A stretch of 64,000 bases of DNA from Siphonodentalium dalli (Eukaryota; Mollusca; Scaphopoda; Gadilida; Siphonodentaliidae): assembly GCA_032622095.1 (NCBI GenBank), contig CP136064.1, positions 48,552,073 to 48,616,072 on the forward strand, in the 5' to 3' direction. The notes beneath the pieces were generated by a model. That model was not told the origin of the DNA. It did no database searches and saw nothing but the letters and a program-made list of their open reading frames with translations. Position numbers and translations under genes: made by a program. Within the stretch, counting starts at the first letter, position 1. Each line of letters opens with the position of its first letter. This document shows positions 3,212-64,000 of the stretch, one piece after another.

Positions 3212-3339
3212 ATGAAAGTGTCAATGACACTGTAGCTCAACTTGGAAAGGGAATAATTTAATGTATTACAGTCAATGGAGCCATTAGGAATGTGGAAAGT
3301 TGAATATCTAATACATGTTTATAGACATGAAGAGAAAAG

Positions 3340-6300: not shown

Positions 6301-7170
6301 TCGTTCCCATCTACATGTCATTGTTAATATCCATGACAAATTTTATGATGATCAGACTAAAGGTATGACCTGCAGCCCGTGCTAAAGAATTTAGTCATAC
6401 AAAGAGTAAAATCCAAGATGGCTGCTGGCGGCCATGTTTATTGACCGAATGACCCCAAAATTACTCGTTCCCATCTACATGTCAATATTATCATCCATGA
6501 CAAATTTCATGGTGATCAGACGAACAGTACGACCTGTGGCCCGTGCTAATGGATTAAATTTTGAAATCCAAGATGGCTGCTGGCGGCCATGTTTTTTGTC
6601 CGAATGACCCCAAAATGACTCGTTCCCATCTACATTCCAATTTCAACAGCCATGACAAATTTTATGATGATCAGACTAAAGGTACGACCTGTAGCCCGTG
6701 CTAAAGGATTTAGTCATACAAAGAGTAAAATACAGGATGGCTGCTGGCGGCCATGTTTTTTGGCCGAATGACCCCAAAATGACTCGTTCCCATCTACATG
6801 TCATTATTAACATTCTTGACAAAATTTATGATGATCAGACTAAAAGTACGACCTGTAGCCCGTGCTAAAGAATTTAGTCATACAAAGAGTAAAATCCAAG
6901 ATGGCTGCTGGCGGCCATGTTTTTGGGCCGAATGACCCCAAAATTACTCGTTCCCATCTACATGTCAATATTAACATCCATGACAAATTTCATGAAGATC
7001 AGACAAACAGTACGGCCTGTAGCCCATGCTAATGGATTGAATTTTGAAATCCAATATGGCCACTGGCGGCCATGTTTTTTTTCCGAATGACCCCAAAATT
7101 AAATATTCTGGTCTAAATGTTGATGTCAACAGCTATGACAAATTTCATAATGATCCGACGAAAGGTATGA
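3340..7170 (+). repeat. Tandem array of about 24 units of about 160 bp
   Basis: Units begin at ccaagatggctgctggcggc, spaced about 157-169 bp apart from 3340 to 7047. Each carries gaatgaccccaaaatgactc, cccatctacatgtca, ttatgatgatcagactaaag and cctgtagcccgtgctaa. A distinct variant with gattaaatttttaaatccaa in front and tctacattccaatttcaaca inside recurs at about 3819, 4297, 4777, 5427, 6071, 6556 and 7033. This gives a higher-order period of three or four units. Open frames of 60-92 codons in the array follow the repeat and are not genes. Confidence 0.95.
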
Positions 7171-7185
7171 CCTGTAGCCTGCATT

Positions 7186-10030: not shown

Positions 10031-11510
10031 CTGATCTGATCATGTCTGTTATATGGACTGAGCATGTTGTTTATGGTCTGAGCATGTCGTTTTATGGTCT
10101 GAGCATGTCGTTTATGGTCTGAGCATGTCGTTTTATGGTTTGAGCATGTCGTTTTATGGTCTGATCATGTCTGTTATATGGACTGAGCATGTCGTTTATG
10201 GTCTGAGCATGTCGTTTATGGTCTGAACATGTTGTTTTATGGTCTGAACATGTCGTTTTATGGTCTGATCATGTCGTTTTATGGTCTGATCATGTCGTTT
10301 TATGGTCTGAGCATGTCGTTTTATGGTCTGAACATGTCGTTTTATGGTTTGAACATGTCGTTTTATGGTCTGAACATGTCGTTTTATGGTTTGAACATGT
10401 CGTTTTATGGTCTGAACATGTCGTTTTATGGTTTGAACATGTCGTTGTATGGTTTGAGCATGTCGTTTTATGGTCTGAGCATGTCGTTTTATGGACTGAG
10501 GATGTCGTTTTATGGTCTGAACATGTCGTTTTATGGTCTGATCATGTCTGTTATATGGACTGAGGATGTCATTTATGGTCTGATCATGTCGTTTTATGGT
10601 CTGATCATGTCGTTTTATGGTCTGAACATGTCGTTTTATGGTCTGAACATGTCGTTTTATGGTCTGAACATGTCGTTTTATGGTCTGAACATGTCGTTTT
10701 ATGGTCTGATCATGTCTGTTATATGGACTGAGGATGTCATTTATGGTCTGAACATGTCGTTTTATGGTCTGAGCATGTCGTTTTATGGTCTGAACATGTC
10801 GTTTTATGGTCTGATCATGTCGTTTTATGGTCTGAACATGTCGTTTTATGGTCTGATCATGTTGTTTTATGGTCTGAGCATGTCGTTTTATGGTCTGATC
10901 ATGTCTGTTATATGGACTGAGGATGTCATTTATGGTCTGTACATGTCGTTTTATGGTCTGAGCATGTCGTTTTATGGTCTGAGCATGTCGTTTTATGGTC
11001 TGAGCATGTCGTTTTATGGACTGAGGATGTCATTTATGGTCTGAGCATGTCGTTTTATGGTCTGAGCATGTCGTTTTATGGTCTGAACATGTCGTTTTAT
11101 GGTCTGAACATGTCGTTTTATGGTCTGAACATGTCGTTTTATGGTCTGAACATGTCGTTTTATGGTCTGATCATGTCTGTTATATGGACTGAGGATGTCT
11201 GTTATATGGACTGAACATGTCGTTTTATGGTCTGAGCATGTCGTTTTATGGTCTGAACATGTCGTTTTATGGTCTGATCATGTCGTTTTATGGTCTGAAC
11301 ATGTCGTTTTATGGTCTGATCATGTTGTTTTATGGTCTGAGCATGTCGTTTTATGGTCTGATCATGTCTGTTATATGGACTGAGGATGTCATTTATGGTC
11401 TGAACATGTCGTTTTATGGTCTGAGCATGTCGTTTTATGGTCTGAACATGTCGTTTTATGGTCCGAACATGGTGCGAACATGTCAATTATATGGTCTGAA
11501 CATGTCGGTT

Positions 11511-11705
11511 ATAGAATAGAATAGAATATAATTTATTAAGCAAAATACGTCCCTGGGTTGGGACAGGTTGCCATACATAGATATAATATTCAAGTGATAC
11601 ATGTACATAAACACACATAACATGTATAATAATAACATCACTTAGTCATGTAACTTAATATGCATTATATAATAATATCAATATAATGTTCAATCTGCAC
11701 TCGAT
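11511..11705 (-). mobile_element. Second copy of the LINE-like tail, made by array duplication
   Basis: Essentially identical to 9836-10030 and offset by 1,675 bp, with the same flanking array units on both sides. It therefore arose by duplication of the host array segment, not by a second insertion. Confidence 0.85.
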
Positions 11706-14700
11706 CTGATCTGATCATGTCTGTTATATGGACTGAGCATGTTGTTTATGGTCTGAGCATGTCGTTTTATGGTCTGAGCATGTCGTTTATGGTCTGAGCA
11801 TGTCGTTTTATGGTTTGAGCATGTCGTTTTATGGTCTGATCATGTCTGTTATATGGACTGAGCATGTCGTTTATGGTCTGAGCATGTCGTTTATGGTCTG
11901 AACATGTTGTTTTATGGTCTGAACATGTCGTTTTATGGTCTGATCATGTCGTTTTATGGTCTGATCATGTCGTTTTATGGTCTGAGCATGTCGTTTTATG
12001 GTCTGAACATGTCGTTTTATGGTTTGAACATGTCGTTTTATGGTCTGAACATGTCGTTTTATGGTTTGAACATGTCGTTTTATGGTCTGAACATGTCGTT
12101 TTATGGTTTGAACATGTCGTTTTATGGTTTGAGCATGTCGTTTTATGGTCTGAGCATGTCGTTTTATGGACTGAGGATGTCGTTTTATGGTCTGAACATG
12201 TCGTTTTATGGTCTGATCATGTCTGTTATATGGACTGAGGATGTCATTTATGGTCTGATCATGTCGTTTTATGGTCTGATCATGTCGTTTTATGGTCTGA
12301 ACATGTCGTTTTATGGTCTGAACATGTCGTTTTATGGTCTGAACATGTCGTTTTATGGTCTGAACATGTCGTTTTATGGTCTGAACATGTCGTTTTATGG
12401 TCTGATCATGTCTGTTATATGGACTGAGGATGTCATTTATGGTCTGAACATGTCGTTTTATGGTCTGAGCATGTCGTTTTATGGTCTGAACATGTCGTTT
12501 TATGGTCTGATCATGTCGTTTTATGGTCTGAACATGTCGTTTTATGGTCTGATCATGTTGTTTTATGGTCTGAGCATGTCGTTTTATGGTCTGATCATGT
12601 CTGTTATATGGACTGAGGATGTCATTTATGGTCTGAACATGTCGTTTTATGGTCTGAGCATGTCGTTTTATGGTCTGAGCATGTCGTTTTATGGTCTGAG
12701 CATGTCGTTTTATGGACTGAGGATGTCATTTATGGTCTGAGCATGTCGTTTTATGGTCTGAGCATGTCGTTTTATGGTCTGAACATGTCGTTTTATGGTC
12801 TGAACATGTCGTTTTATGGTCTGAACATGTCGTTTTATGGTCTGAACATGTCGTTTTATGGTCTGATCATGTCTGTTATATGGACTGAGGATGTCATTTA
12901 TGGTCTGAACATGTCGTTTTATGGTCTGAGCATGTCGTTTTATGGTCTGAACATGTCGTTTTATGGTCTGATCATGTCGTTTTATGGTCTGAACATGTCG
13001 TTTTATGGTCTGATCATGTTGTTTTATGGTCTGAGCATGTCGTTTTATGGTCTGATCATGTCTGTTATATGGACTGAGGATGTCATTTATGGTCTGAACA
13101 TGTCGTTTTATGGTCTGAGCATGTCGTTTTATGGTCTGAACATGTCGTTTTATGGTCTGATCATGTCGTTTTATGGTCTGAACATGTCGTTTTATGGTCT
13201 GAACATGTCGTTTTATGGTCTGATCATGTTGTTTTATGGTCTGAGCATGTCGTTTTATAGTCTGAGCATGTCGTTTTATGGTCTGAACATGTCGTTTTAT
13301 GGTCTGAACATGTCGTTTTATGGTCTGAACATGTTGTTTTATGGTCTGATCATGTCTGTTATATGGACTGAGGATGTCATTTATGGTCTGAACATGTCGT
13401 TTTATGGTCTGAGCATGTCGTTTTACGGACTGAGCATGTCGTTTTATGGTCTGAGCATGTCGTTTTATGGACTGAGGATGTCATTTATGGTCTGAGCATG
13501 TCGTTTTATGGTCTGAGCATGTCGTTTTATGGACTGAGGATGTCGTTTTATGGTCTGAACATGTCGTTTTATGGTTTGAGCATGTCGTTTTATGGTCTGA
13601 GCATGTCGTTTTATGGACTGAGCATGTGGTTTTATGGTTTGAGCATGTCGTTTTATGGTCTGAGCATGTCGTTTTATGGACTGAGGATGTCGTTTTATGG
13701 TCTGAACATGTCGTTTTATGGTTTGAGCATGTCGTTTTATGGTTTGAACATGTCGTTTTATGGTCTGAACATGTCGTTTTATGGTTTGAACTTGTCGTTT
13801 TATGGTCTGAGCATGTCGTTTTATGGTCTGAACATGTCGTTTTATGGTTTGAGCATGTCGTTTTATGGTCTGAGCATGTCGTTTTATGGTGTGGGCATGT
13901 CGTTTTATGGTCTGATCATGTCGTTTATGGTCTGAGCATGTCGTTTTATGGTCTGAGCATGTCGTTTTATGGTTTGAGCATGTCGTTTTATGGTTTGAGC
14001 ATGTCGTTTTATGGTCTGAGCATGTCGTTTTATGGTCTGATCATGTCGTTTATGGTCTGATCATGTCGTTTTATGGTCTGAGCATGTCGTTTTATGGTCT
14101 GAGCATGTCGTTTTATGGTCTGAGCATGTCGTTTTATGGTCTGAACATGTCGTTTTATGGTTTGAGCATGTCGTTTTATGGTCTGAGCATGTCGTTTTAT
14201 GGACTGAGAATGTCGTTTTATGGTCTGATCATGTCGCTTTATGGTCTGAGCATGTCGTTTTATGGTCTGAGCATGTCGTTTTATGGTCTGAACATGTCGT
14301 TTTATGGTCTGAGCATGTCGTTTTATGGTCTGAACATGTCGTTTTATGGTCTGATCATGTCGTTTTATGGTCTGAGCATGTCGTTTTATGGACTGAGGAT
14401 GTCGTTTTATGGTCTGAACATGTCGTTTTATGGTCTGAACATGTCGTTTTATGGTCTGATCATGTCTGTTATAGGGACTGAGGATGTCATTTATGGTCTG
14501 ATCATGTCGTTTTATGGTCTGAACATGTCGTTTTATGGTCTGAACATGTCGTTTTATGGTCTGAACATGTCGTTTTATGGTCTGAGCATGTCGTTTTATG
14601 GTCTGAGCATGTCGTTTTATGGTCTGAACATGTCGTTTTATGGTCTGAGCATGTCGTTTTATGGTCTGAACATGTCGTTTTATGGTCTGATCATGTCGTT

Positions 14701-17700
14701 TTATGGTCTGAGCATGTCGTTTTATGGACTGAGGATGTCGTTTTATGGTCTGAACATGTCGTTTTATGGTCTGAGCATGTCGTTTTATGGTCTGAGCATG
14801 TCGTTTTATGGTCTGAGCATGTCGTTTTATGGTCTGAACATGTCGTTTTATGGTCTGAGCATGTCGTTTTATGGTCTGAACATGTCGTTTTATGGTCTGA
14901 TCATGTCGTTTTATGGTCTGAGCATGTCGTTTTATGGACTGAGGATGTCGTTTTATGGTCTGAACATGTCGTTTTATGGTCTGAACATGTCGTTTTATGG
15001 TCTGAGCATGTCGTTTTATGGTCTGAACATGTCGTTTTATGGTCTGATCATGTCGTTTTATGGTCTGATCATGTCTGTTATAGGGACTGAGGATGTCATT
15101 TATGGTCTGATCATGTCGTTTTATGGTCTGAACATGTCGTTTTATGGTCTGAACATGTCGTTTTATGGTCTGAACATGTCGTTTTATGGTCTGATCATGT
15201 CGTTTTATGGTCTGATCATGTCTGTTATATGGACTGAGGATGTCATTTATGGTCTGAGCATGTCGTTTTATGGTCTGAACATGTCGTTTTATGGTCTGAA
15301 CAAGTCGTTTTATGGTCTGATCATGTCGTTTTATGGTCTGATCATGTCGTTTTATGGTCTGATCATGTCTGTTATATGGACTGAGGATGTCATTTATGGT
15401 CTGAGCATGTCGTTTTATGGTCTGAGCATGTCGTTTTATGGACTGAGGATGTTGTTTTATGGTCTGAGCATGTCGTTTTATGGTCTGAGCATGTCTGTTT
15501 TATGGTCTGAGCATGTTGTTTTATGGTCTGAGCATGTCTGTTTTATGGTCTGAGCATGTTGTTTTATGGACTGAGGATGTCGTTTTATGGTCTGAACATG
15601 TCGTTTTATGGTCTGAGCATGTCGTTTTATGGTCTGAGCATGTCGTTTTATGGTCTGAGCATGTCGTTTTATGGTCTGAACATGTCGTTTTATGGTCTGA
15701 GCATGTCGTTTTATGGTCTGAACATGTCGTTTTATGGTCTGATCATGTCGTTTTATGGTCTGAGCATGTCGTTTTATGGACTGAGGATGTCGTTTTATGG
15801 TCTGAACATGTCGTTTTATGGTCTGAACATGTCGTTTTATGGTCTGAGCATGTCGTTTTATGGTCTGAACATGTCGTTTTATGGTCTGATCATGTCGTTT
15901 TATGGTCTGATCATGTCTGTTATAGGGACTGAGGATGTCATTTATGGTCTGATCATGTCGTTTTATGGTCTGAACATGTCGTTTTATGGTCTGAACATGT
16001 CGTTTTATGGTCTGAACATGTCGTTTTATGGTCTGATCATGTCGTTTTATGGTCTGATCATGTCTGTTATATGGACTGAGGATGTCATTTATGGTCTGAG
16101 CATGTCGTTTTATGGTCTGAACATGTCGTTTTATGGTCTGAACAAGTCGTTTTATGGTCTGATCATGTCGTTTTATGGTCTGATCATGTCGTTTTATGGT
16201 CTGATCATGTCTGTTATATGGACTGAGGATGTCATTTATGGTCTGAGCATGTCGTTTTATGGTCTGAGCATGTCGTTTTATGGACTGAGGATGTTGTTTT
16301 ATGGTCTGAGCATGTCGTTTTATGGTCTGAGCATGTCTGTTTTATGGTCTGAGCATGTTGTTTTATGGTCTGAGCATGTCTGTTTTATGGTCTGAGCATG
16401 TTGTTTTATGGACTGAGGATGTTGTTTTATGGTCTGAGCATGTCGTTTTATGGTCTGATCATGTCGTTTTATGGTCTGATCATGTCGTTTTATGGTCTGA
16501 TCATGTCGTTTTATGGTCTGATCATGTCTGTTATATGGACTGAGGATGTCATTTATGGTCTGAGCATGTCGTTTTATGGTCTGAACATGTCGTTTTATGG
16601 TCTGAACAAGTCGTTTTATGGTCTGAACATGTCGTTTTATGGTCTGAACATGTCGTTTTATGGTCTGATCATGTCTGTTATATGGACTGAGGATGTCGTT
16701 TATGGTCTGAACATGTCGTTTTATGGTCTGATCATGTCTGTTATATGGACTGAGGATGTCATTTATGGTCTGAGCATGTCGTTTTATGGTCTGAACATGT
16801 CGTTTTATGGTCTGAACATGTCGTTTTATGGTCTGAGGATGTCGTTTTATGGTCTGAACATGTCGTTTTATGGTTTGAGCATGTCGTTTTATGGTTTGAA
16901 CATGTCGTTTTATGGTCTGAACATGTCGTTTTATGGTCTGAGCATGTCGTTTTATGGTCTGAGCATGTCGTTTTATGGTCTGAGCATGTCGTTTTATGGT
17001 CTGAACATGTCGTTTTATGGTTTGAGCATGTCGTTTTATGGTCTGAGCATGTCGTTTTATGGTCTGAGCATGTCGTTTTATGGTCTGATCATGTCGTTTA
17101 TGGTCTGATCATGTCGTTTTATGGTCTGAGCATGTCGTTTTATGGTCTGAGCATGTCGTTTTATGGTCTGAACATGTCGTTTTATGGTTTGAGCATGTCG
17201 TTTTATGGACTGAGGATGTCGTTTTATGGTCTGAGCATTTCGTTTTATGGTCTGAACATGTCGTTTTATGGTCTGAGCATGTCGTTTTATGGTTTGAGCA
17301 TGTCGTTTTATGGTCTGAGCATGTCGTTTTATGGTCTGATCATGTCGTTTATGGTCTGATCATGTCGTTTTATGGTCTGAGCATGTCGTTTTATGGTCTG
17401 AGCATGTCGTTTTATGGTCTGAGCATGTCGTTTTATGGTCTGAGCATGTCGTTTTATGGTCTGAGCATGTCGTTTATGGTCTGATCATGTCGTTTTATGG
17501 TCTGAACATGTCGTTTTATGGTCTGAGCATGTCGTTTTATGGTCTGAGCATGTCGTTTTATGGTCTGAACATGTCGTTTTATGGTTTGAGCATGTCGTTT
17601 TATGGACTGAGGATGTCGTTTTATGGTCTGAGCATGTCGTTTTATGGACTGAGCATGTCGTTTTATGGTCTGATCATGTCGTTTATGGTCTGATCATGTC

Positions 17701-20700
17701 GTTTTATGGTCTGAGCATGTCGTTTTATGGTCTGAGCATGTCGTTTTATGGTCTGATCATGTCGTTTATGGTCTGATCATGTCGTTTTATGGTCTGAACA
17801 TGTCGTTTTATGGTCTGAGCATGTCGTTTTATGGTCTGAGCATGTCGTTTTATGGTCTGAACATGTCGTTTTATGGTTTGAGCATGTCGTTTTATGGACT
17901 GAGGATGTCGTTTTATGGTCTGAGCATGTCGTTTTATGGTCTGAGCATGTCGTTTTATGGTCTGAACATGTCGTTTTATGGTCTGAGCATGTCGTTTTAT
18001 GGTCTGAGCATGTCGTTTTATGGTCTGAACATGTCGTTTTATGGTCTGAGCATGTCGTTTTATGGTCTGAACATGTCGTTTTATGGTCTGAACATGTCGT
18101 TTTATGGTCTGAGCATGTCGTTTTATGGACTGAGGATGTCGTTTTAAGGTCTGAGCATGTCGTTTTATGGTCTGAGCATGTCGTTTTATGGTCTGATCAT
18201 GTCGTTTATGGTCTGATCATGTCGTTTTATGGTCTGAACATGTCGTTTTATGGTCTGAGCATGTCGTTTTATGGTCTGAGCATGTCGTTTTATGGTCTGA
18301 ACATGTCGTTTTATGGTTTGAGCATGTCGTTTTATGGACTGAGGATGTCGTTTTATGGTCTGAGCATGTCGTTTTATGGTCTGAGCATGTCGTTTTATGG
18401 TCTGAACATGTCGTTTTATGGTCTGAGCATGTCGTTTTATGGTCTGAGCATGTCGTTTTATGGTCTGAACATGTCGTTTTATGGTCTGAGCATGTCGTTT
18501 TATGGTCTGAGCATGTCGTTTTATGGACTGAGGATGTCTGTTATATGGACTGAGCATGTCGTTTTATGGTCTGAACATGTCGTTTTATGGTCTGAGCATG
18601 TCGTTTTATGGTCTGAACATGTCGTTATATGGACTGAGGATGTCGTTTTATGGTCTGAGCATGTCGTTTTATGGTCTGAGCATGTCGTTTTATGGACTGA
18701 GGATGTCTGTTATATGGACTGAGCATGTCGTTTTATGGTCTGAACATGTCGTTTTATGGTCTGAGCATGTCGTTTTATGGTCTGAACATGTCGTTTTATG
18801 GTCTGAGCATGTCGTTTTATGGTCTGAACATGTCGTTATATGGACTGAGGATGTCTGTTATATGGTCTGAACATGTCGTTTTATGGTCTGAGCATGTCGT
18901 TTTATGGTCTGAACATGTCGTTTTATGGTCTGAGCATGTCGTTTTATGGTCTGAGCATGTCGTTTTATGGTCTGAACATGTCGTTTTATGGTCTGAGCAT
19001 GTCGTTTTATGGTCTGAGCATGTCGTTTTATGGACTGAGGATGTCTGTTATATGGACTGAGCATGTCGTTTTATGGTCTGAACATGTCGTTTTATGGTCT
19101 GAGCATGTCGTTTTATGGTCTGAACATGTCGTTATATGGACTGAGGATGTCGTTTTAAGGTCTGAGCATGTCGTTTTATGGTCTGAGCATGTCGTTTTAT
19201 GGTCTGAGCATGTCGTTTTATGGTCTGAGCATGTCGTTTTATGGACTGAGGATGTCTGTTATATGGACTGAGCATGTCGTTTTATGGTCTGAACATGTCG
19301 TTTTATGGTCTGAACATGTCGTTTTATGGTCTGAGCATGTCGTTTTATGGTCTGAGCATGTCGTTTTATGGACTGAGGATGTCTGTTATATGGACTGAGC
19401 ATGTCGTTTTATGGTCTGAACATGTCGTTTTATGGTCTGAGCATGTCGTTTTATGGTCTGAACATGTCGTTTTATGGTCTGAGCATGTCGTTTTATGGTC
19501 TGAACATGTCGTTATATGGACTGAGGATGTCGTTTTATGGTCTGAACATGTCGTTTTATGGTCTGAGCATGTCGTTTTATGGTCTGAACATGTCGTTATA
19601 TGGACTGAGGATGTCGTTTTAAGGTCTGAGCATGTCGTTTTATGGTCTGAGCATGTCGTTTTATGGTCTGAGCATGTCGTTTTATGGACTGAGGATGTCT
19701 GTTATATGGACTGAGGATGTCGTTTTATGGTCTGAACATGTCGTTTTATGGTCTGAGCATGTCGTTTTATGGTCTGAACATGTCGTTATATGGACTGAGG
19801 ATGTCGTTTTAAGGTCTGAGCATGTCGTTTTATGGTCTGAGCATGTCGTTTTATGGTCTGAGCATGTCGTTTTATGGTCTGAGCATGTCGTTTTATGGAC
19901 TGAGGATGTCTGTTATATGGACTGAGCATGTCGTTTTATGGTCTGAACATGTCGTTTTATGGTCTGAACATGTCGTTTTATGGTCTGAGCATGTCGTTTT
20001 ATGGTCTGAGCATGTCGTTTTATGGACTGAGGATGTCTGTTATATGGACTGAGCATGTCGTTTTATGGTCTGAACATGTCGTTTTATGGTCTGAGCATGT
20101 CGTTTTATGGTCTGAACATGTCGTTTTATGGTCTGAGCATGTCGTTTTATGGTCTGAACATGTCGTTATATGGACTGAGGATGTCGTTTTATGGTCTGAA
20201 CATGTCGTTTTATGGTCTGAGCATGTCGTTTTATGGTCTGAACATGTCGTTATATGGACTGAGGATGTCGTTTTAAGGTCTGAGCATGTCGTTTTATGGT
20301 CTGAGCATGTCGTTTTATGGTCTGAGCATGTCGTTTTATGGACTGAGGATGTCTGTTATATGGACTGAGCATGTCGTTTTATGGTCTGAACATGTCGTTT
20401 TATGGACTGAGGATGTCGTTTTATGGTCTGAGCATGTCGTTTTATGGTTTGAGCATGTCGTTTTATGGTCTGAGCATGTCGTTTTATGGTCTGAGCATGT
20501 CGTTTTATGGACTGAGGATGTTGTTTTATGGACTGAGGATGTCGTTTTATGGTCTGAGCATGTCGTTTTATGGTCTGAGCATGTCGTTTTATGGACTGAG
20601 GATGTTGTTTTATGGACTGAGGATGTCGTTTTATGGTCTGAGCATGTCGTTTTATGGACTGAGGATGTCGTTTTATGGTCTGATCATGTCGTTTTATGGT

Positions 20701-20784
20701 CTGATCATGTCTGTTATATGGACTGAGGATGTCATTTATGGTCTGATCATGTCGTTCACATGATATGAGCATGTCGTTTATATG

Positions 20785-22935: not shown

Positions 22936-24078
22936 CTGAATATTTATGCAAATTGCTACAACTAATGTTTTCCTGTGTTTTAATACCAGAACAGAATAAC
23001 AGACGACTAGTGTTGCAATTAATGTAATAGGCAGCACACTGCTACTGATCGTGATTAACGATATTTGTATTTTAGAGTTATTGTTCGTTGGCTTCCCCGT
23101 TACAGTTATGTGTGTAAACAATGGCTTCCCTGTTACAGTAATGTGTGTAAACAATGGCTTCCCTGTTACAGTTATGTGTGTAAACAATGGCTTCCCTGTT
23201 ACGGTAATGTGTGTAAACAATGGCTTCCCTGTTACAGTAATGTGTGTAAACTCTGGCTTCCCTGTTACAGTAATTTGTCTAAACAATAGCTTCCCTGTTA
23301 CAGTAATGTGTGTAAACAATGGCTTCCCTGTTACAGTAATGTGTGTAAACAATGACTTCCCTGTTACAGTAATGTGTGTAAACAATGGCTTCCATGTTAC
23401 AGTAATGTGTGTAAACAATGGCTTCCCTGTTACAGTAATGTGTGTAAACAATGGCTTCCCTGTTACAGTAATGTGTGTAAACAATGGCTTCCCTGTTACA
23501 GTAATGTGTGTAAACAATGACTTCCATGTTACAGTAATGTGTGTAAACAATGGCTTCCCTGTTACAGTAATGTGTACAAACAATGGCTTCCTTGTTACAG
23601 TAATGTGTACAAACAAAGGCTTCCCTGTTACAGTATTGTGTGTAAACAATGGCTTCCCTGTTTCAGTAATGTGTGTAAACAATGGCTTCCCTGTTACAGT
23701 AATGTGTGTAAACAATGGCTTCCCTGTTACAGTAAGGTGTGTAAACAATGGCTTCCCTGTTACAGTAATGTGTGTAAACAATGGCTTCCCGGTTACAGTA
23801 AGGTGTGTAAACAATGGCTTCCCTGTTACAGTAATGTGTGTAAACAATGGCTTCCCTGTTACAGTAATGTGTGTAAACAATGGCTTCCCTGTTACAGTAA
23901 GGTGTGTAAACAATGGCTTCACTGTTACAGTAATGTGTGTAAACAATGGCTTCCATGTTACAGTAATGTGTGTAAACAATGGCTTCCCTGTTACAGTAAT
24001 GTGTGTAAACAATGGCTTGCCTGTTACAGTAATGTGTGTTAACAATGGCTTCCCTGTTACATTAATGTGAGTAAACAA
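22936..24078 (-). pseudogene. Possible exon: Thr-rich 11-residue repeats plus transmembrane anchor
   Basis: On the minus strand, the frame through the 33-bp array (THITVTGKPLF repeats) continues without a stop into single-copy DNA. There it encodes KIQISLITISSSVLPITLIA, then TLVVCYSVLVLKHRKTL, then VVAICINIQ. That is a hydrophobic segment of about 25 residues followed by a basic stop-transfer KHRK, as in a type I membrane protein. A possible donor CAG|gtaaat follows at 22935. Against a working gene: a 2-bp deletion near 24086, and in-frame stops at 24275-24277 and 24704-24706, break the frame further into the array. I recognise no family. It could be a decayed exon, a short exon using a splice site inside the array, or chance. 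Confidence 0.3.
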
Positions 24079-25262
24079 TGGCTTCCGTTACATTAATGTG
24101 AGTAAACAATGGCTTCCCTGTTACAGTAATGTGTATAAACACTGGCTTCCCTGTTATAGTAATGTGTGTAAACAATGGCTTCCCTGTTACAGTAATGTGT
24201 GTAAACACTGGCTTCCCTGTTACAGTAATGTGTGTAAACACTGGCTTCCCTGTTACAGTAATGTGTGTAAACACTGGCTACCCTGTTACATTAATGTATG
24301 TAAACACTGGCTTCTCTGTTACAGTAATGTGTGTAAAGACTGGCTTCCCTGTTACTGTAATGTGTGTAAACACTCGCTTACCTGTTACAGTAATGTGTGT
24401 AAACACTGGCTTCTCTGTTACAGTAATGTGTGTAAACACTGGCTTCTCTGTTACAGTAATGTGTGTAAACAATGGCTTCTCTGTTACAATAATGTGTGTA
24501 AACACTGGCTTCTCTGTTACAGTAATGTGAGTAAACAATGGCTTTCCTGTTACAGTAATGTGTGTAAACAATGGCTTCTCTGTTACGGTAATGTGTGTAA
24601 ACAATGGATTCCCTGTTACGGTAATGTGTCTAAACAATGGCTTCCCAGTTACAGTAATGTGTGTAAACACTGGCTTCCCTGTTACAGTAATGTGTGTAAA
24701 CACTGGCTACCCTATTACATTAATGTATGTAAACACTGGCTTCTCTGTTACAGTAATGTGTGTAAAGACTGGCTTCCCTGTTACTGTAATGTGTGTAAAC
24801 ACTCGCTTACCTGTTACAGTAATGTGTGTAAACACTGGCTTCTCTGTTACAGTAATGTGTGTAAACACTGGCTTCTCTGTTACAGTAATGTGTGTAAACA
24901 ATGGCTTCTCTGTTACAATAATGTGTGTAAACACTGGCTTCTCTGTTACAGTAATGTGAGTAAACAATGGCTTCCCTGTTACAGTAATGTGTGTAAACAA
25001 TGGCTTCTCTGTTACGGTAATGTGTGTAAACAATGGATTCCCTGTTACGGTAATGTGTGTAAACAATGGCTTCCCAGTTACAGTAATGTGTGTAAACAAT
25101 GGCTTCCCTGTTACAGTAATGTGTGTAAACAATGGCTTCCCTGTTACAGTAATGTGTGTAAACAATGGCTTCCCTGTTACAGTAATGTGTGTAAACAATG
25201 GCTTCCCTGTTACAGTAATGTGTGTAAACAATGGCTTCCTTGTTACAGTAATGATTGTAAAC
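23085..25262 (+). repeat. 33-bp minisatellite, about 2.2 kb and about 66 units
   Basis: The unit contains acaatggcttccctgttaca followed by gtaatgtgtgtaa. Variants include actggcttctctg and cactggctaccctg. The segment 24140-24530 recurs at 24569-24959, a shift of 429 bp or exactly 13 units. Long frames on both strands (MCVNNGFPVTV, CKQWLPCYSNV and THITVTGKPLF units) reflect the period being a multiple of three. Confidence 0.97.
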
Positions 25263-25666
25263 AATGGCTTCAACATACAGAATCTCATTACTGGAGGGTT
25301 ATTGATTGATAAAGAGAAAAAGAACGAATTCCTTTATTTTTTTCTTGTTCTTCTTGATTATACTGGTTTAACAAACTTTATATAATTTACCAGCTGCACC
25401 GACAGTGAACACCTTCCATATCAGTAAGTCCAACAAAGGCTAGCAGCGAACAACAGGTGTATATAAATGCTATCGGTTCCTTTTCATTTGTGGAAATGTT
25501 CAGATAAAAAGTTCAACTTAAATAAATGGATGGGAAATAAAAAATACCCAACTTCAAATAAATGGATCGGAATTAAAAAATACCCCATCAGCAAGTATTC
25601 AGTCATTAAAAGATTTAAAAACAGCATCATAGCTAACATCACCAGCATTATTGCAAAAAGACTTAC
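25263..25666. other. Intronic spacer with a family D fragment
   Basis: Contains aaatgttcagataaaaagtt near 25495, a piece of family D. It also holds a duplicated segment around aaatggatgggaaataaaaa and aaatggatcggaattaaaaa. No gene seen. Confidence 0.45.
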
Positions 25667-29639: not shown

Positions 29640-29838
29640 CATAAAGGCCTATCATGTATATGAAATTTAAAGTGACATACGCAATGATATAATATCAACT
29701 TTTAGTTTGCTACTTGTTTTCCGATAACGCCACTAAAAAGATGTATCGCAAGACATTGCAGTCCAGAGTGATGAATTAGACTGAATATTGCAAACTTTTT
29801 TGGGAGAAGGGAACTAAGTTTAGACTGTTTAGGAATAG
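29640..29838. other. No gene recognised
   Basis: Short AT-rich spacer ahead of the U2-like sequence. Confidence 0.4.
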
Positions 29839-30020
29839 GTCGGTCCCGGAGGTACTGCAATACCGGGACAGCCCGTGGTGAGGTTAGAGCAATCTCTATC
29901 TAGGCCACTCGCCTACTGTCAAAATTCAGTTTAATATCGAAGTCCCCAGTTGGGGACATATCAAACATTAAGTTACACACATATGTGTCTGAACCTGCTT
30001 AATGACAGATTTTATTTGTT
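29839..30020 (-). ncRNA. U2 snRNA-like sequence (diverged copy or pseudogene)
   Basis: On the minus strand, cccggtattgcagtacctcc is the terminal stem-loop of U2 spliceosomal RNA. Upstream, tatgtccccaactggggac matches the U2 stem IIa/IIb region in layout, followed by gatattaaactgaattttga at the place of the Sm-site region (AUUUUUGG in U2). The 5' third is poorly conserved: neither the cap-proximal atcgcttctcggcc nor the branch-point-pairing guagua can be found. The order and spacing fit one diverged U2 gene. A degenerate retrocopy is the simplest explanation. Confidence 0.6.
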
Positions 30021-57213: not shown

Positions 57214-57510
57214 AAGATACAGGCGGCCTTAGTGGTGGGTATAGCTGTTAAAATAATCACATCCACTAAAACCGCCATAAACAGAAAGAATTATATTATA
57301 AACGGATGCTAATTTTACATTAATAAAATGTGATCCGATCTCAGGGCTGAAATAATTTGCGAACCCGCTATGTGTGAATTAGTAGATATATGACATAACG
57401 GGGTCCAAGAATGACTGTATATAAGTGTTTACACCACCATAACCAACACAATATCATCGTCATCATCACCGTCATCTTCTTCAGCATCATGTCACTAATT
57501 AGTTGTTTTT
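57214..57510. other. No gene recognised
   Basis: Spacer with a short tcatcatcaccgtcatcttc run near 57465. Confidence 0.4.
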
Positions 57511-57525
57511 TAATTTACTAACATG

Positions 57526-57925
57526 TTAACCCTTTACCCAACAGAAGGGCCCTGTGCCAATGCATTCTCTTATATATGCGAGTCGACCATAGGTCGCCTC
57601 GCATATATAAGAGAATGCATTGGCTTAACACATTAAAAATTATAAAATTGTTAAAGAATATAAGAAAAAATGGTAAAAAGTGTTAAAAAAAGATTTTTGT
57701 TTAGGCCAATGCATTCTCTTATATATGCGAGGCGACCTATGGTCGACTCGCATATATAAGAGAATGCATTGGCACAGGGCATAACTGCAACTATCACAAT
57801 GTGGTCAAGGAGCCGGTTCCAATGATATCCATATTTGTATGGTTCTATTGAGACAGACCGAAGATATATTAGGCTGTTGAAACTTTATTTGGCCGGTTTT
57901 GCCGTTTTGTTGGGTAAAGGGTTAA
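57526..57925 (+). mobile_element. MITE family B1, full length, with 20-bp flanking repeat
   Basis: ttaaccctttacccaacaga to ttgttgggtaaagggttaa. The flank ttaatttactaacatgttaa occurs on both sides, so the direct repeat is 20 bp and not the 4-bp TTAA alone. Confidence 0.93.
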
Positions 57926-58311
57926 TTTACTAACATGTTAATGTTACAGACTGATTTATGGCTGAGGCATAATAAACATTTGCAACAAATGGCCTAAAAT
58001 TTAATAAGTAATTACTGTTCAGAGTTTCACAATTTTCTCTTTTCGTCATTTATGTAATACTAGCTGATGTACCCGACTTCGTCCAGGCTATTTAGGGATT
58101 TCTTTGTGATCGGCAGCGGAATTTGTATTTATGAAATTGTCCACGAAATTAATTTATCAAGGTTAATTGCACACGATTTGTTGCAGCTGAACATGTACTA
58201 AACAACTCTTTTTAGATTTAAGTTCCATCTTTTTTGTTATGGCACAAAAACTGGATCTGTTTTACAGACCACCACCCCCCCCCACCCCACCAACCTACCG
58301 GAAACCCTGCC
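57926..58311. other. No gene; retroelement-like fragment
   Basis: At 58062 tactagctgatgtacccgac and ttcgtccaggctattta look like a widespread decayed retroelement or Helitron terminus. Unassigned. Confidence 0.35.
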
Positions 58312-58658: not shown

Positions 58659-59049
58659 TTAACCCTTTACCCAACAGAAGGGCCCTGTGCCAATGCATTC
58701 TCTTATATATGCGAGTCGACCCATAGGTCGCCTCGCATATATAAGAGAATGCATTGGCTTAACACATTAAAAATTATAAAATTGTTAAAGAATGTAAGAA
58801 AAAATGGTAAAAAGTTTTTTTTTTAGGCCAATGCATTCTCTTATATATGCGAGGCGACCTATGGTCGACTCGCATATATAAGAGAATGCATTGGCACAGG
58901 GCATAACTGTAACTATCACAATGTGGTCAAGGAGCCGGTTCCAATGATATCCATATTTGTATGGTTTTATTGAGACAGACCGAAGATATTTTTAGGCTGT
59001 TGAAGCTTTATTTGGCCGGTTTTGGCCGGTTTGTTGGGTAAAGGGTTAA
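58659..59049 (+). mobile_element. MITE family B1, full length
   Basis: ttaaccctttacccaacaga to gtttgttgggtaaagggtta plus A. Compared with 57526 the linker between hairpins has lost gtgttaaaaaaag and gained a T run. Confidence 0.93.
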
Positions 59050-59351
59050 AGGCCCAATTAATTTTTGAATCCCCAGCTCGCATTAAATACAACATATTCC
59101 ATATTATATACCATTTGTAAGAGGAAGCTCCAAAACTTTGTATTATCAACTTATCAGGTCAAATAAACTGTGAACATGTTGTTTTTGTCAAGGTACCGAC
59201 ATGTGTTCTGTGCTTAATTTCAATCTGGTCTGTACTGTCAGTTTATCATTCTCAATGGAAGGGGAATAACTCTATCTCTTAGTTGTGAATTATGATGCAT
59301 TCTGGGATAACTATTGGGGGAAGTCTTAGTGTGAAGTCTTAAGAGTTCCGT
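59050..59351. other. No gene recognised
   Basis: Spacer between a B1 MITE and a SINE. Confidence 0.4.
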
Positions 59352-59815
59352 ATTCTAATAATAATGTATAGCATTTGTAAAGCGCCTTTCCCATGAGGCC
59401 CAAAGCGCTCAAAGTTTTACAATTATTACCCTGATGAGCCTGAACATTCAGTAACCATCTACTGCTCCCCGGGGACAGGGGGAGGTACAGCCGGGAGTAT
59501 GCGAGGATACCATATGGCTAGCATACTGACAAGATCTTTCACTGCTCATTATCAGGTACCCTTGTAATGCATGGGTGGTGCAAAGCAGACACAGTACGAG
59601 CGACCTTGCTCAAGGGTCACATCTTGGCGCGAGATTCAAACAGTGTACAATCCAACAATTGCACATCGCTCAAGTCGGCCAAGCCACTGCTGTGTGGAAA
59701 CTCATAACAGACCACCAGCCAGCCGCGAACTCGCCTCGCTTCGTGCCATATATGCTGTGTTGACAGCGAAGACAAGTCCAACGCGCTAACCACTGGACCA
59801 CGGAGCTCCACTTCT
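59352..59815 (-). mobile_element. tRNA-derived SINE
   Basis: On the minus strand the head reads ggagctccgtggtccagtgg then ttagcgcgttggact, the 5' half of a tRNA with an A box (TGGTCCAGTGGTTAGCG). A GTTTGAATCTC B-box-like sequence occurs about 140 bp on. The 3' domain has gagcgctttgggcctcatgg and aaaggcgctttacaaatgct, the paired AGCGC motif typical of several metazoan SINE tails. It ends in an A/T-rich ATT repeat (cattattattagaat). It is CpG-rich compared with its surroundings. Box spacing is unusual and may indicate a composite head. Confidence 0.75.
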
Positions 59816-60660
59816 GGTGGTATATGTAAATATTTGGTTCCTCTTCCAAATGGTATATAATATGGAATATCTTGTGTATAATGTGATCTGGGCATTCGAA
59901 AATTAAGTGGGCCTTTAAGTATGTTCATTTTTGTTTTCATCCCATATGCCACAGTAATGCTATATGTGATAGTTGGAAAGCATTCTTTCCAAAATTTGAA
60001 TTGAACAATATGCTTTTAAGTAGATAGATCTAACTTAGAATGCATAATCAGAAAATAGGACAAGATGGTACCAAATATTTCATTTTTCACAGTACAATGG
60101 ATAAATATAGTTGCTTTTTAGTATTATTAAAGGCACGGGCATCGTTCGTTGCAGAACTATTCATATTTGTTCAAATCGCCATCAACAGAATGAATATTAA
60201 AATAAATATAGTTTTGTTCATATGCCAAACATAATCAGCACATAAATAGTCTATTGTCGTATTTTGGTGTACGTAAACAAGAGCCTGCTTGTGTTACAGA
60301 AGTTGTGCTTCTGTTTACATAACACAGCGCAATTCTATTGGTTAATCACACAAAAATGATATAAACGCTCTTTATTATTTCCATATCAGGAAAACAGTAA
60401 CGAATAACGCTCTTTATGTTTACCATATCCGGATCTAAACAAAAGCCAGGAAATGTAACGTTTTTTGCTTTTGTTTACATAACAAGGGGAAAACAATCAC
60501 AATAACATACTGTTTATGCCATATTTCTGATTGGTATAAGAACAAGATCTGTCTATATTTTACTATTCTTTCTGTTTATGACGGTTTTGTGACGGAGTTG
60601 AATATTTTAACAGCATACCCACCGCCAATGCCACCCATATCTTTAAGAACATACATACAA
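59816..60660. other. No gene recognised
   Basis: Includes inversely repeated segments around tgtttacataac and aacgctctttat at 60260-60485. Nothing codes recognisably. Confidence 0.4.
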
Positions 60661-60663
60661 CTA

Positions 60664-60810
60664 AAGGAGAGAGAGAGATAATCATTTATTAACGTGACAT
60701 GTGCAATACATAAATCATCAATATATATATTATATATGTTTCAATTACAATTAGCACCCGGCCCATATGGCCTATATGTCACGCTTAATAGTATAAGTAT
60801 GTACATGGTT
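60664..60810 (-). mobile_element. LINE-like 3' end, minus strand
   Basis: Shares ggcccatatggcctatatgt with 37735-37765. On the minus strand it ends with an AATAAATGATTATC signal and a (TC)n tail. Confidence 0.5.
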
Positions 60811-61104
60811 TGGTCCAACACATGTGGACTATCCTCAGTGATGATATTAAGAGAATTTTATAAAGTAGAGAATTTCATTTTAATCTTACACAATTTGGAG
60901 ATATTTGGATTTATATATTTTGTATTCTTATATGTTGATACGTTTGGTGTATAATTTATCTGTATATGAATTGTTTTCTTCGCATAAAAGCATCAAACAG
61001 AAATTTTGCTAGTTGTCGGGGAAATAACATTAGCTCACTAAAAGAGTCGTCGATGCAGTCTGTTTTATATGGCAAGCCAAACCGCTATTTAATATTAATT
61101 TTAC

Positions 61105-62606
61105 TTAAGTAAAATAAAATTACACTTTATTTTACTTAAGTGAAATAAAATGTCATTTTCTATTTTACTTAAGTAAAGGTCATTTTCTATTTTACTTAAG
61201 TAAAAAAGAATTTTACTTAAGTAAAATTAACCATGTTTTAACTTAAGTAGAATTCTTTTTTACTTAAGTAAAATAAGAAATGACCTTTATTTTACTTAAG
61301 TAAAAAAGAATTCTACTTAAGTAAAATAATGCGTTAATTTTACTTAAGTAAAATAAATGACATCTATGGATGACCGGTAGATGGCGTTTATTTCACTTAA
61401 GTAAAATAAGAAATGACCTTTATTTTACTTAAGTAAAAAAGAATTCTACTTAAGTAAAATAATGCGTTAATTTTACTTAAGTAAAATAAATGACATCTAT
61501 GGATGACCGGTAGATGGCGTTTATTTCACTTAAGTAAAATAAAGCGCCCACTATGGGAGTCATCTTGCAAACTAACAATTGCTCCCTTGGCACGTGCGCC
61601 GGGAGTGCTGTTCATGTTCGTGAGAAAGTTAACCCAGGCTACAGTCGTAGCCGGCTAGGCATGCGCAGTAGAAAGCTACAGAAAACTGCAGCCGGCCACA
61701 GCTGGTGGTCACTAACTATTGTACCGCAACTCCGAACTTGGAATGTCGGCATAATGTTGGCATTATGTTGCTATATCAATTCACCAATGGTCTCGCTCGC
61801 TGCAGCAAGCACATTTGAAGCAATTAACACTCATACTAAGTCCATGCCTCCATAAATCTGATATTTAAAAGAGTATGATATGTGATTATATCTCGTTCTC
61901 AGCACAATAAGCATCAAACACAAACGCATCACACATTTTAGCAGTTTTCTCTGATTATTGCGGTAATGGCAGTGGGTGTGGAATGTTCTCAATTTTATTG
62001 CATGAGGTTGGTGCTAATCCCGTTCTGTCAGCTATATATCATAAAACACTCGCTGTCCTTATAACAAGGTCACATGTGGTTTGGTGGGATTTGGCGTTGG
62101 TCTCTAAACTGATTGGGGGGAAATCATTAATAACTCTTAACACCTGGTTGCACACTATTTTACTTAAGTAAAATAAATGACATATATCGATGACCGGTAG
62201 ATGGCGTTTATTTCACTTAAGTGAAATAAACCCAAATGTTCATTTATTTTACTTAAGTAAAAAAGAATTTTACTTAAGTTAAATAAAAACTGTGTTTTAT
62301 TTCACTTAAGTAAAATTCTTTTTTACTTAAGTAAAATAAAAAAAGGCGTAACATAATGGTAAATTTATTTCACTTAAGTAAAATTAGTGTGCGTTTTAAT
62401 TTTACTTAAGTAAAATAAAATGTCATTTTATTTTACTTAAGTAAAATAAAGTGTCATTTTATTTTACTTAAGTTAAATAAAACCATGTAGATGGCGCTTT
62501 ATTTCACTTAAGTAAAATAAAATGACACTTTATTTTACTTAAGTAAAATAAAATGTCATTTTATTTCACTTAATTGAAATAAAGTGTCATTTTATTTTAC
62601 TTAAAG
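61105..62606. repeat. Array of TTTTACTTAAGTAAAA palindromes (27 CTTAAG cores)
   Basis: Palindromes of form tttta(c)cttaagt(g)aaaa recur 27 times in two blocks, 61105-61530 and 62155-62606. Spacing is irregular, at 15-60 bp. Linkers are short and partly repeated (aatgacctttattt, aatgcgttaatt, atgaccggtagatggcgttt). One 133-bp compound unit is duplicated in tandem at about 61273-61405 and 61406-61535. I see no coding frame. The unit is not a known telomere, CRISPR or satellite that I can name. Confidence 0.9.
61531..62154. other. Non-palindromic segment between the two palindrome blocks
   Basis: Higher GC (tggcacgtgcgccgggagtg, gcagccggccacagctggtg) with a plus-strand frame of 100 codons at 61553-61855 that is not recognised. 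It could be the body of an element whose ends are the palindrome blocks. Confidence 0.4.
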
Positions 62607-63690
62607 GGGTACTGTACGCCATTTTCATTAAATTTCCGGTGACAACAACGATCTAATGCACCCAGGGCCGATAAGGTTCGGGGTGATTTATGTGGTTCTT
62701 TGATCCTGTCATCCGGCAGACATTCCGGATTTTCGGTACGATCCGTTCCGTATCGGCCGAACTTAAAAGTCCGCATTTTACATCCGCCCGGAATGCTGCC
62801 TCCTTCCGGTAACTGAAAAAAGCAATTCACTCTTGAATTATACGCATCGCGCTCGGTTGTGTCGTCAATTCCTATCTGTTTCCATCCGTCACCGTGTTTC
62901 TTCGCCAGCCTTCATTTATTCGTCTATCATCTTGTTCCTTGTGCGCTCTGTCTGCGTCCTGTTCCGTCGGCGTTACCTATTTTCGTGGGTCGTGCACGTG
63001 TTTTCCCTGTTTGTGTTTGTCGTTCGGTGGCATTCCCGTATTTCTCCTATGGTTCGTACAGGATCTCGCGGTCGGGCCCGCGACCGTTCGTCTCGTAGCA
63101 GTCGCCAGGATGCGTCTGCCAGCTCGTCTCGTGCTGGTCCTGCTTCCAGTGGCCGTGTTAGGCCTTCTTCTCGGGTTTTCGGCCAGTGTGTCATCTGTGG
63201 CTGATTCACGGGTGCGCTGCCGTGGTCAGCATTCGCGTGGCAGGCCTGCTCGTGGCTCTGGACGGGGATGCCACGCCTCTCGTGGCCGCGATCCTGTTCG
63301 TCAGCCTCGTTGTCGGCCCAGTCGCCAGGCTCGTCGCCGACAGGACGTTTTCTGCGCTATGAATCCAGGTCACCACTAGCGTCTCCTTTGTCGTCCTGTC
63401 CCCGCCGCAGTTCTGATGACAGCTCCACTTCTCTCCGCCGCCGCGAGGATTCCCGTGTGGCTTCAGTGATAAACCGACCGAACGCTCCGGCAAGAGACAG
63501 AACTGATCCGGGTAATGCCTTATTTAGCTTTCCATCCTCGCTGGTCTCCCCTTGGGACGCCCCCTTGCCGATTCCTACGGCGGCAGATGGCCTTGGCTCT
63601 CACGTTTCCCGATCTTCGCGACAAAATTTTCTGGGGGCGTCGTGCTTCCGGGCGAATCCGTGTTGCGCCCAAGGCTTAAAATAAGTGGTC
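62607..63690 (+). other. CpG-rich segment with basic Ser/Arg-rich open frames
   Basis: GC content rises sharply and CpG is frequent, unlike the rest of the window. Three overlapping plus frames exist: 62833-63204 (containing MVRTGSRGRARDRSSRSSRQ and ending CVICG), 62894-63379 and 63268-63684 (containing SSCPRRSSDDSSTSLRRRED and VINRPNAPARDRTDP). The Ser/Arg-rich sequence across two frames suggests one coding region with frameshifts, for instance the gag-like N-terminal part of a retroelement, or a first exon with its CpG island. No domain is recognisable, so I do not name it. Confidence 0.35.
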
Positions 63691-64000
63691 TGATATGGCC
63701 AATTGTCAGACACCAAATTCAAATTTTTATAGGTTGTCAGGCTCTGCTTTGAAACTGTCTGACATAATGTCTGGTTGAGAAATTGATGTATTTTTATGAA
63801 AATATCACTGGTAATGTGATATTTTGCAAAAATTTATAGAGCATGCTGTTAGATGAAATTGGATTGCATAATTTATGGATCCAGTAACACCACTGGGATC
63901 AGAGCAATTGAAGACTTCTATAACCTTAGAATTGAAATCGGCAAGTATGTTTAATGTTGTCAAGGTGGGGCAGATTTGCATTAAAAAAAAAAAGTAAAAA
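63691..64000. other. No gene recognised
   Basis: The base composition returns to AT-rich; there are repeats of gtctgac/gtcagac near 63700-63770. Confidence 0.4.

Follow-up and report, generated by a model that had tools for sequence, protein, structure and literature searches.

The 1.5-kb stretch at positions 61105-62604 is made up of 28 mostly tiny units lying between 29 TTAA cores, and we explain it best, with moderate confidence, as a chain of MITE-like remnants, that is, of 28 apparently noncoding, TTAA-bounded units with inverted ends. Positions are those of the window, by which we mean the whole 64-kb stretch of DNA that was analyzed, and which is itself probably noncoding eukaryotic DNA. 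In the mechanism we propose, a new unit would insert at a TTAA bordering an existing unit, and end, TTAA, and end would together form a palindrome. The middle of a unit would later be lost with both ends spared, shrinking units to 17 to 49 nt, and units would be duplicated, inverted, or removed as near-identical junctions recombined or slipped against each other, with a 133-bp duplication as the most recent of the recombination events between junctions. The insertions would presumably have been made by a TTAA-specific transposase, the change in units would have run from long to short, and the array is likely to be without present function.

Layout of the array

The array contains 27 CTTAAG cores, from 61104 to 62543, and two extra cores at its right end, CTTAAT (TTAA at 62570) and CTTAAA (TTAA at 62601). 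When it was cut at the TTAAs, 27 units of 17 to 49 nt and one of 630 nt were obtained, arranged as follows.

61105-61533, no strand assigned: left block, 14 short units and 15 TTAA cores
61534-62163, no strand assigned: long unit, 630 nt, G+C 43%
62164-62604, no strand assigned: right block, 13 short units and 14 TTAA cores
62605-62620, plus strand: right flank, AGGGG exactly from the last common TTAA

The ends of the long unit are GTAAAATAAAGCGCC and GCACACTATTTTAC, which give perfect inverted ends of 8 nt, and AGGGGTACTGTACGCC directly follows the last core of the right block (62601-62604). The G+C content is 21% for both blocks together versus 43% for the middle unit, and the 27 CTTAAG palindromes in two blocks around a GC-richer segment that had been reported in the original prediction were counted again here. 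Allowing up to three mismatches, TTTTACTTAAGTAAAA had 30 matches in the window, 28 of them at 61099-62579, compared to 1.11 expected by chance in the whole window and a maximum of 4 in 100 shuffles. The description of the region as an array of 16-bp palindromes therefore holds for the 28 near-matches, but the exact 16-mer is present in only 14 of them, with 11 others carrying one mismatch, 2 carrying two, and 1 carrying three.

The spacings of the cores in the left part, in bp, are 31, 33, 27, 21, 26, 21, 32, 21, 27, 53, 32, 21, 27, and 53, followed by 634 for the long unit and then by 53, 36, 21, 32, 21, 47, 32, 31, 31, 40, 31, 31, and 31. Apart from the single value of 634 bp, the spacings vary between 21 and 53 bp; they are thus irregular, as had been noticed originally, there is no fixed period, and TRF returned conflicting periods of 26, 27, 31, 53, 62, 102, and 133 over the array. 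No satellite monomer of fixed length, which had been named as a finding that would speak against the original prediction, was seen in either the core spacings or the TRF periods.

Unit ends and the common TTAA

Units have the form TTAA-GTRAAAT...ATTTYAC-TTAA, with variants, and neighbors have one TTAA in common, so the palindrome ATTTYAC-TTAA-GTRAAAT is the product of two unit ends meeting across a single TTAA. The conserved half-site is GTRAAAT, often extended to GTRAAATAAA (27). Among the 56 unit ends, position 1 was G in 55 and T in 1, position 2 was T in all 56 (with 55 beginning GT), position 3 was A in 43, G in 10, and T in 3, position 5 was A in all 56, position 6 was A in 55, position 7 was T in 48, and positions 8 to 10 were mostly A (43, 40, and 43). 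GTNAAAT was found at both ends of 19 of the 28 units, and the remaining units deviated at some position. The 29 cores had been picked as TTAA beforehand; the count of GTRAAAT copies adjoining TTAA is independent of that choice. All 43 exact copies of GTRAAAT in the array (1 of the 43 in the left flank) adjoined TTAA, versus none of the 40 copies in the rest of the window, and all 27 exact copies of GTRAAATAAA in the window lay within the array and adjoined TTAA. Outside the array, the window held neither GTRAAATAAA nor GTRAAAT beside TTAA, nor a solitary copy of a unit away from the array. Covariation of half-sites showed no excess either way, whether across a core (15/29, p 0.45) or within a unit (13/28, p 0.86).

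As in MITEs of the TTAA type, the units are flanked by TTAA, the putative target, and carry terminal inverted repeats, here the GTRAAAT consensus over the 56 ends. The terminal motifs of the two superfamilies compared were absent from the ends: piggyBac has the hallmark CC[C/T]T (PMC2872659, in excerpt), while 55 of the 56 ends begin with G and one with T, and T2-MITE/Kolobok elements have the terminal motif AGGRR, with AGGGGAACTATCATGA as a listed end (PMC6004289, in excerpt), while 55 of the 56 begin with GT. Since neither motif was found, we file the array under neither piggyBac nor Kolobok.

Unit families and a recent duplication

From comparisons of the units, we grouped 21 of the 27 short ones into six recurrent families (A, 6 units; B, 6; C, 3; D, 2; E, 2; G, 2), the membership being our own grouping. 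The units discussed below are the following.

61200-61216, plus strand: family A unit (17 nt), from unit comparison
61247-61263, minus strand: family A copy
61300-61316, plus strand: family A copy
61433-61449, plus strand: family A copy, within the 133-bp duplication
62257-62273, plus strand: family A copy
62310-62326, minus strand: family A copy
62410-62436, plus strand: family B unit (27 nt)
61109-61135, minus strand: family B copy
62441-62467, plus strand: family B copy
62512-62538, minus strand: family B copy
62543-62569, plus strand: family B copy
62574-62600, plus strand: family B copy
61348-61396, plus strand: family C unit (49 nt)
61481-61529: family C copy, within the 133-bp duplication
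62168-62216: family C copy
61140-61168 (29 nt) and 61173-61195 (23 nt), plus strand: family E pair (units 2 and 3)
62378-62405, minus strand: unit 22 (28 nt), fits the joined ends of the 630-nt unit
62472-62507, plus strand: unit 25 (36 nt), fits the family C unit minus part of its middle
61264-61396 and 61397-61529, plus strand: tandem duplication of four units, 133/133 identical

Families A and B are present in both orientations, and three pairs of units (4 and 20, 6 and 8, and 24 and 26) are exact reverse complements. Units of family A fit exactly between TTAAs next to several different neighbors. The ends of the remaining six short units and of the long unit are of the same kind, but their interiors are for the most part peculiar to each. 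Of the 21 family units, 4 come from the second copy of the 133-bp duplication, one each in A, C, D, and G; when this copy is omitted, 15 of 23 short units fall into four families, because D and G recur only through this duplication. Identity between the two copies extends 2 nt further to the left and 13 nt further to the right, which places their boundaries inside junction sequence. The perfect duplication looks recent, and this one clearly recent event needs only recombination.

These families bear on the statement in the original prediction that the palindrome is conserved and the linkers are not, which is half correct. Linkers differ from one family to another, but within A, B, and C the interiors vary like the ends, and equal conservation of linkers, which had been named as grounds for rejection, is accordingly found within families and not across the whole array.

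Long-short pairs and constraint on the ends

Three short units fit longer units from which the middle is missing and both ends are kept, as judged by comparison with shuffled interiors. The joined ends of the 630-nt unit fit unit 22, with 7 of 3,000 interior shuffles as good, and with part of the middle missing the family C unit fits unit 25 (1 of 1,500 shuffles as good) and unit 2 fits unit 3 (0 of 1,500). The latter two pairs were chosen by eye ahead of the shuffle test. Of the ten short units that were compared to the 630-nt unit, unit 22 was the sole clear match; unit 25 gave a weak result (25 of 1,500 shuffles as good), and derivation from the 630-nt unit received no support for the eight others. 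Interior shuffles of this kind reveal common sequence and are silent on the direction of change.

With duplicate copies omitted, variable columns within families A, B, and C made up 4 of 42 at the ends and 4 of 51 in the interiors (Fisher p = 1; small numbers). Since the ends are as variable as the interiors, these families give no visible sign of selection on the palindrome, and the unit ends look as if they were common by descent without visible extra constraint, although the numbers are small. This bears directly on the proposal in the original prediction of a multi-site protein-binding array. In such an array, palindromes of 16 to 18 bp would be dimer sites under selection. The palindromes are indeed dense and near-exact, a half-site of 7 to 10 nt is conserved, this half-site resembles NK-type homeodomain sites, and the family C units contain a CTCF-like stretch. 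However, beyond the equal variation of ends and interiors, CTCF-like matches in the window were at the level of chance (6 matches, of which 4 lay within the array, versus 4.09 expected, with 25 of 100 shuffles giving as many), and no Pfam domain exceeded the cut-off in six frames over 25.3-64 kb. The protein-binding proposal thus has no positive support beyond the density of palindromes itself, and we consider it unlikely.

A hairpin-rich replication or recombination site had also been suggested. Folded as single-stranded DNA, the left block is indeed much more stable than its 100 shuffled versions (z = -21), but this strong folding follows from the palindromes themselves, and such a site is possible. 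The 23 Rfam matches (E up to 1) in 60000-64000 lay nearly all within the array; they were mostly to microRNA families, far below gathering scores and several on both strands, and we take them as an effect of the palindromes.

Order of units in the two blocks

The two blocks, at 429 and 441 bp, are about equally long and lie on either side of a richer middle, and a BLAST match of 202 bp at 70% joins them in inverted orientation, which is what would be provided by a foldback element whose two inverted arms consist of short subrepeats and enclose a 630-nt loop. Palindromic units yield inverted matches by themselves, however, so this match is no proof of a foldback. We aligned units 1 to 10 of the left block with the right block and compared the scores with those obtained after shuffling the units of the right block. 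The inverted alignment scored 341.5, equalled by 225 of 400 shuffles of unit order and orientation, and the direct alignment scored 320.5, equalled by 278 of 400 unit shuffles; in local alignment, the inverted score was equalled by 325 of 500 shuffles and the direct score by 399 of 500. In addition, the family C units on either side of the middle have the same orientation rather than opposite ones, and we regard a foldback element as highly improbable. Duplication of a whole block was likewise rejected by the unit-shuffle tests, and the colinearity of units 2-7 with units 17-21 that was apparent by eye scored no better than shuffles. The unit order fits changes by single units or short runs and speaks against inverted arms and a large duplicated block, without amounting to proof, since older events may be blurred.

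Other TTAA-bounded elements and the right flank

TTAA-bounded elements of other kinds are present in the window. The TTAA-CCCTTTACCCAACA family has 11 arms and four paired elements of 391-400 bp whose outsides are unrelated; TTAA-CCCTTTC.. and similar sequences have 14 arms; and there are two elements of TTAA-AGGTACTCAATCC and one of TTAA-AGGCCC. The elements at 58659-59049 (CCCTTTACCCAACA ends) and 59046-59918 (AGGCCC ends) are unrelated and have the TTAA at 59046-59049 in common, which is an example of chaining. TTAA-bounded inverted pairs are not special in the window as a whole (TTAA 36, AATT 41, TATA 66, ATAT 74), and doubly bounded sites outside the array numbered 5 for TTAA, 41 for AATT, 13 for TATA, 31 for ATAT, and 8 for TGCA. 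Because real repeats inflate the counts for all words, only named families with unrelated outsides were used as an argument. From the five doubly bounded TTAA sites outside the array, we used only 59046 and left aside 54228 (in a dropped family), 57526 and 57922 (in a 20-bp flanking repeat), and 38902. The dropped family, CCACAGCAGAATTATG (21 arms), had been a candidate for chained TTAA-bounded units; conservation extends to the sequence outside its arms (GGAGTCGATTATTTAG), which makes the family more likely to be an internal portion of some longer inverted-repeat element.

The segment to the right of the array, 62605-63680, is GC-rich (G+C is 51% in 63001-64000), begins with AGGGGTACTG at the last TTAA of the array, and has arginine/serine-rich open frames with no Pfam match over the cut-off. 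Its start is like a Kolobok/T2 end in form, and it is possibly a Kolobok-like element with its other end beyond the window; no partner for the AGGGG end was found in the window.

Several further repeats were observed. A 400-bp CCCTTTACCCAACA element at 57510-57941 has the same 20-bp stretch, TTAATTTACTAACATGTTAA, on both sides, which is longer than a 4-bp target duplication. Many copies of a family with inverted ends containing CTAAATAATCGACTCC-TTAA-CCACAGCAGAATTATG lie at 26378-56480, the paired copies measuring 80 to 171 bp from TTAA to TTAA. Palindromes of 39-40 bp (TATATATGCGAGGCGACC...GTCGACTCGCATATATA and variants) occur in about a dozen places at 3116-58880, several of them within CCCTTTACCCAACA elements. 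Large tandem arrays occupy 3338-7179 (164-bp units), 10035-20784 (21-bp units, about 10.7 kb, strongly strand-skewed), and 23089-25271 (33-bp units). A match to U2 spliceosomal RNA at 29830-30012 on the minus strand, of full model length and scoring 52.2 versus a gathering score of 46 bits, is perhaps a pseudogene.

Discussion

The original prediction had raised the possibility of a transposable palindrome that seeds into itself at TTAA. Of the ideas put forward there, this one fits best, with the change that the unit is the linker with both of its ends and not the palindrome. The anatomy of the units, their recurrence in both orientations, the three long-short pairs, and the lack of block-level order all speak for a chain of MITE-like elements. 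Against it stand unit lengths much smaller than those of coral MITEs (roughly 100 bp; PMC2872659, in excerpt), the nine units without GTNAAAT at both ends, ends that match neither the piggyBac nor the Kolobok/T2 motif, the confinement of GTRAAAT beside TTAA to the array within the window, and the sufficiency of recombination for the 133-bp duplication. No transposase domain was found by Pfam in six frames over 25.3-64 kb, where the four matches were weak (best E-value, 0.0098) and all below the cut-off. Non-autonomous elements need no transposase nearby.

The main rival is a palindrome-rich minisatellite that arose without transposition, in which the TTAA would be a mere dyad center; a dyad repeat such as a 31-bp unit would have been duplicated, inverted, and deleted through replication slippage, hairpin-guided template switching, and unequal exchange. 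The strong hairpin potential of the left block, the perfect tandem duplication with its boundaries within junction sequence, the adjacency of similar units at the right end and in the pair of units 2 and 3, and the location of every copy at one locus in the window are all as this origin would have it. But the interiors of the long unit and of units 17, 19, 21, 22, and 25 bear little or no relation to the 31-bp unit, the best whole-unit partners of these five short units scoring 0.35-0.62 with the common ends included, and all six nevertheless carry the same kind of ends as the rest. Family A moreover recurs singly, exactly TTAA-bounded, beside several different neighbors, and other elements in the window have TTAA as their boundary. 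We consider the minisatellite origin possible but rather doubtful. A quite improbable further alternative is that a TTAA-specific or host-domesticated transposase moves sub-segments as cassettes between the 29 junctions in either orientation; such an array would be comparable in function to an integron or shufflon, but in a eukaryote. The internal eliminated sequences of ciliates, which are excised by transposases, offer a likeness for such an exchange.

The nearest analogue we found is the M1/M2 system of pithoviruses, in which palindromic, noncoding, MITE-like repeats form (M1-M2)n-M1 chains with the target dinucleotide TA common to neighbors, and in which transposition versus recombination is discussed as open (PMC10664404, in excerpt). 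Both are chains of short, noncoding units in which neighbors share one target or, in the array, putative target, but the M1/M2 repeats use TA, have inverted ends that are 54 and 47 bp long, come in two types, and occur in giant viruses, whereas the array has TTAA, ends of 7-10 nt, mostly 17-49-nt units of many types, and apparently a eukaryotic host. The CMITE elements of corals, piggyBac/TTAA MITEs of which some are in tandem arrays, resemble the array as small, noncoding, TTAA-flanked elements with inverted ends; they differ in having units of about 100 bp, CC[C/T]T ends, interiors more conserved than ends, and arrays probably derived from slippage (PMC2872659, in excerpt), whereas in the array the ends are alike and the interiors differ between families. 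T2-MITE/Kolobok elements have in common with the array the TTAA target, and the right neighbor of the array begins AGGGG after the common TTAA, but array units begin GTRAAAT and not AGGRR (PMC6004289, in excerpt). Satellite DNAs of bivalves resemble the array in their abrupt junctions, which in one satellite fall inside a palindrome, but they have defined monomers and the array has no fixed one (PMC5139131, in excerpt).

No related array was found in IMG/VR or in GTDB contigs. The exact string ACTTAAGTAAAATAAA occurred in 33 stretches of IMG/VR, with one match each and no cluster. Gapped double patterns gave no matches in IMG/VR and, in GTDB contigs, none in one search and four in another; none of the four was an array, all being single bacterial hairpins, three of them beside sequence that by eye was like a tRNA 3' end. 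At least one short array string occurred in each of 30 papers, and the matches listed were judged from titles to be chance, and strings of the other window repeats were not found in the literature searched.

If the array is a chain of MITE-like remnants, it is an example of the extent to which TTAA-bounded elements can be shortened and strung together, and it would illustrate how transposon ends can give rise to an irregular array that resembles a satellite but in which the repeated "motif" is no more than the junction of two ends. It also calls for caution, in that dense arrays of palindromes need not be regulatory.
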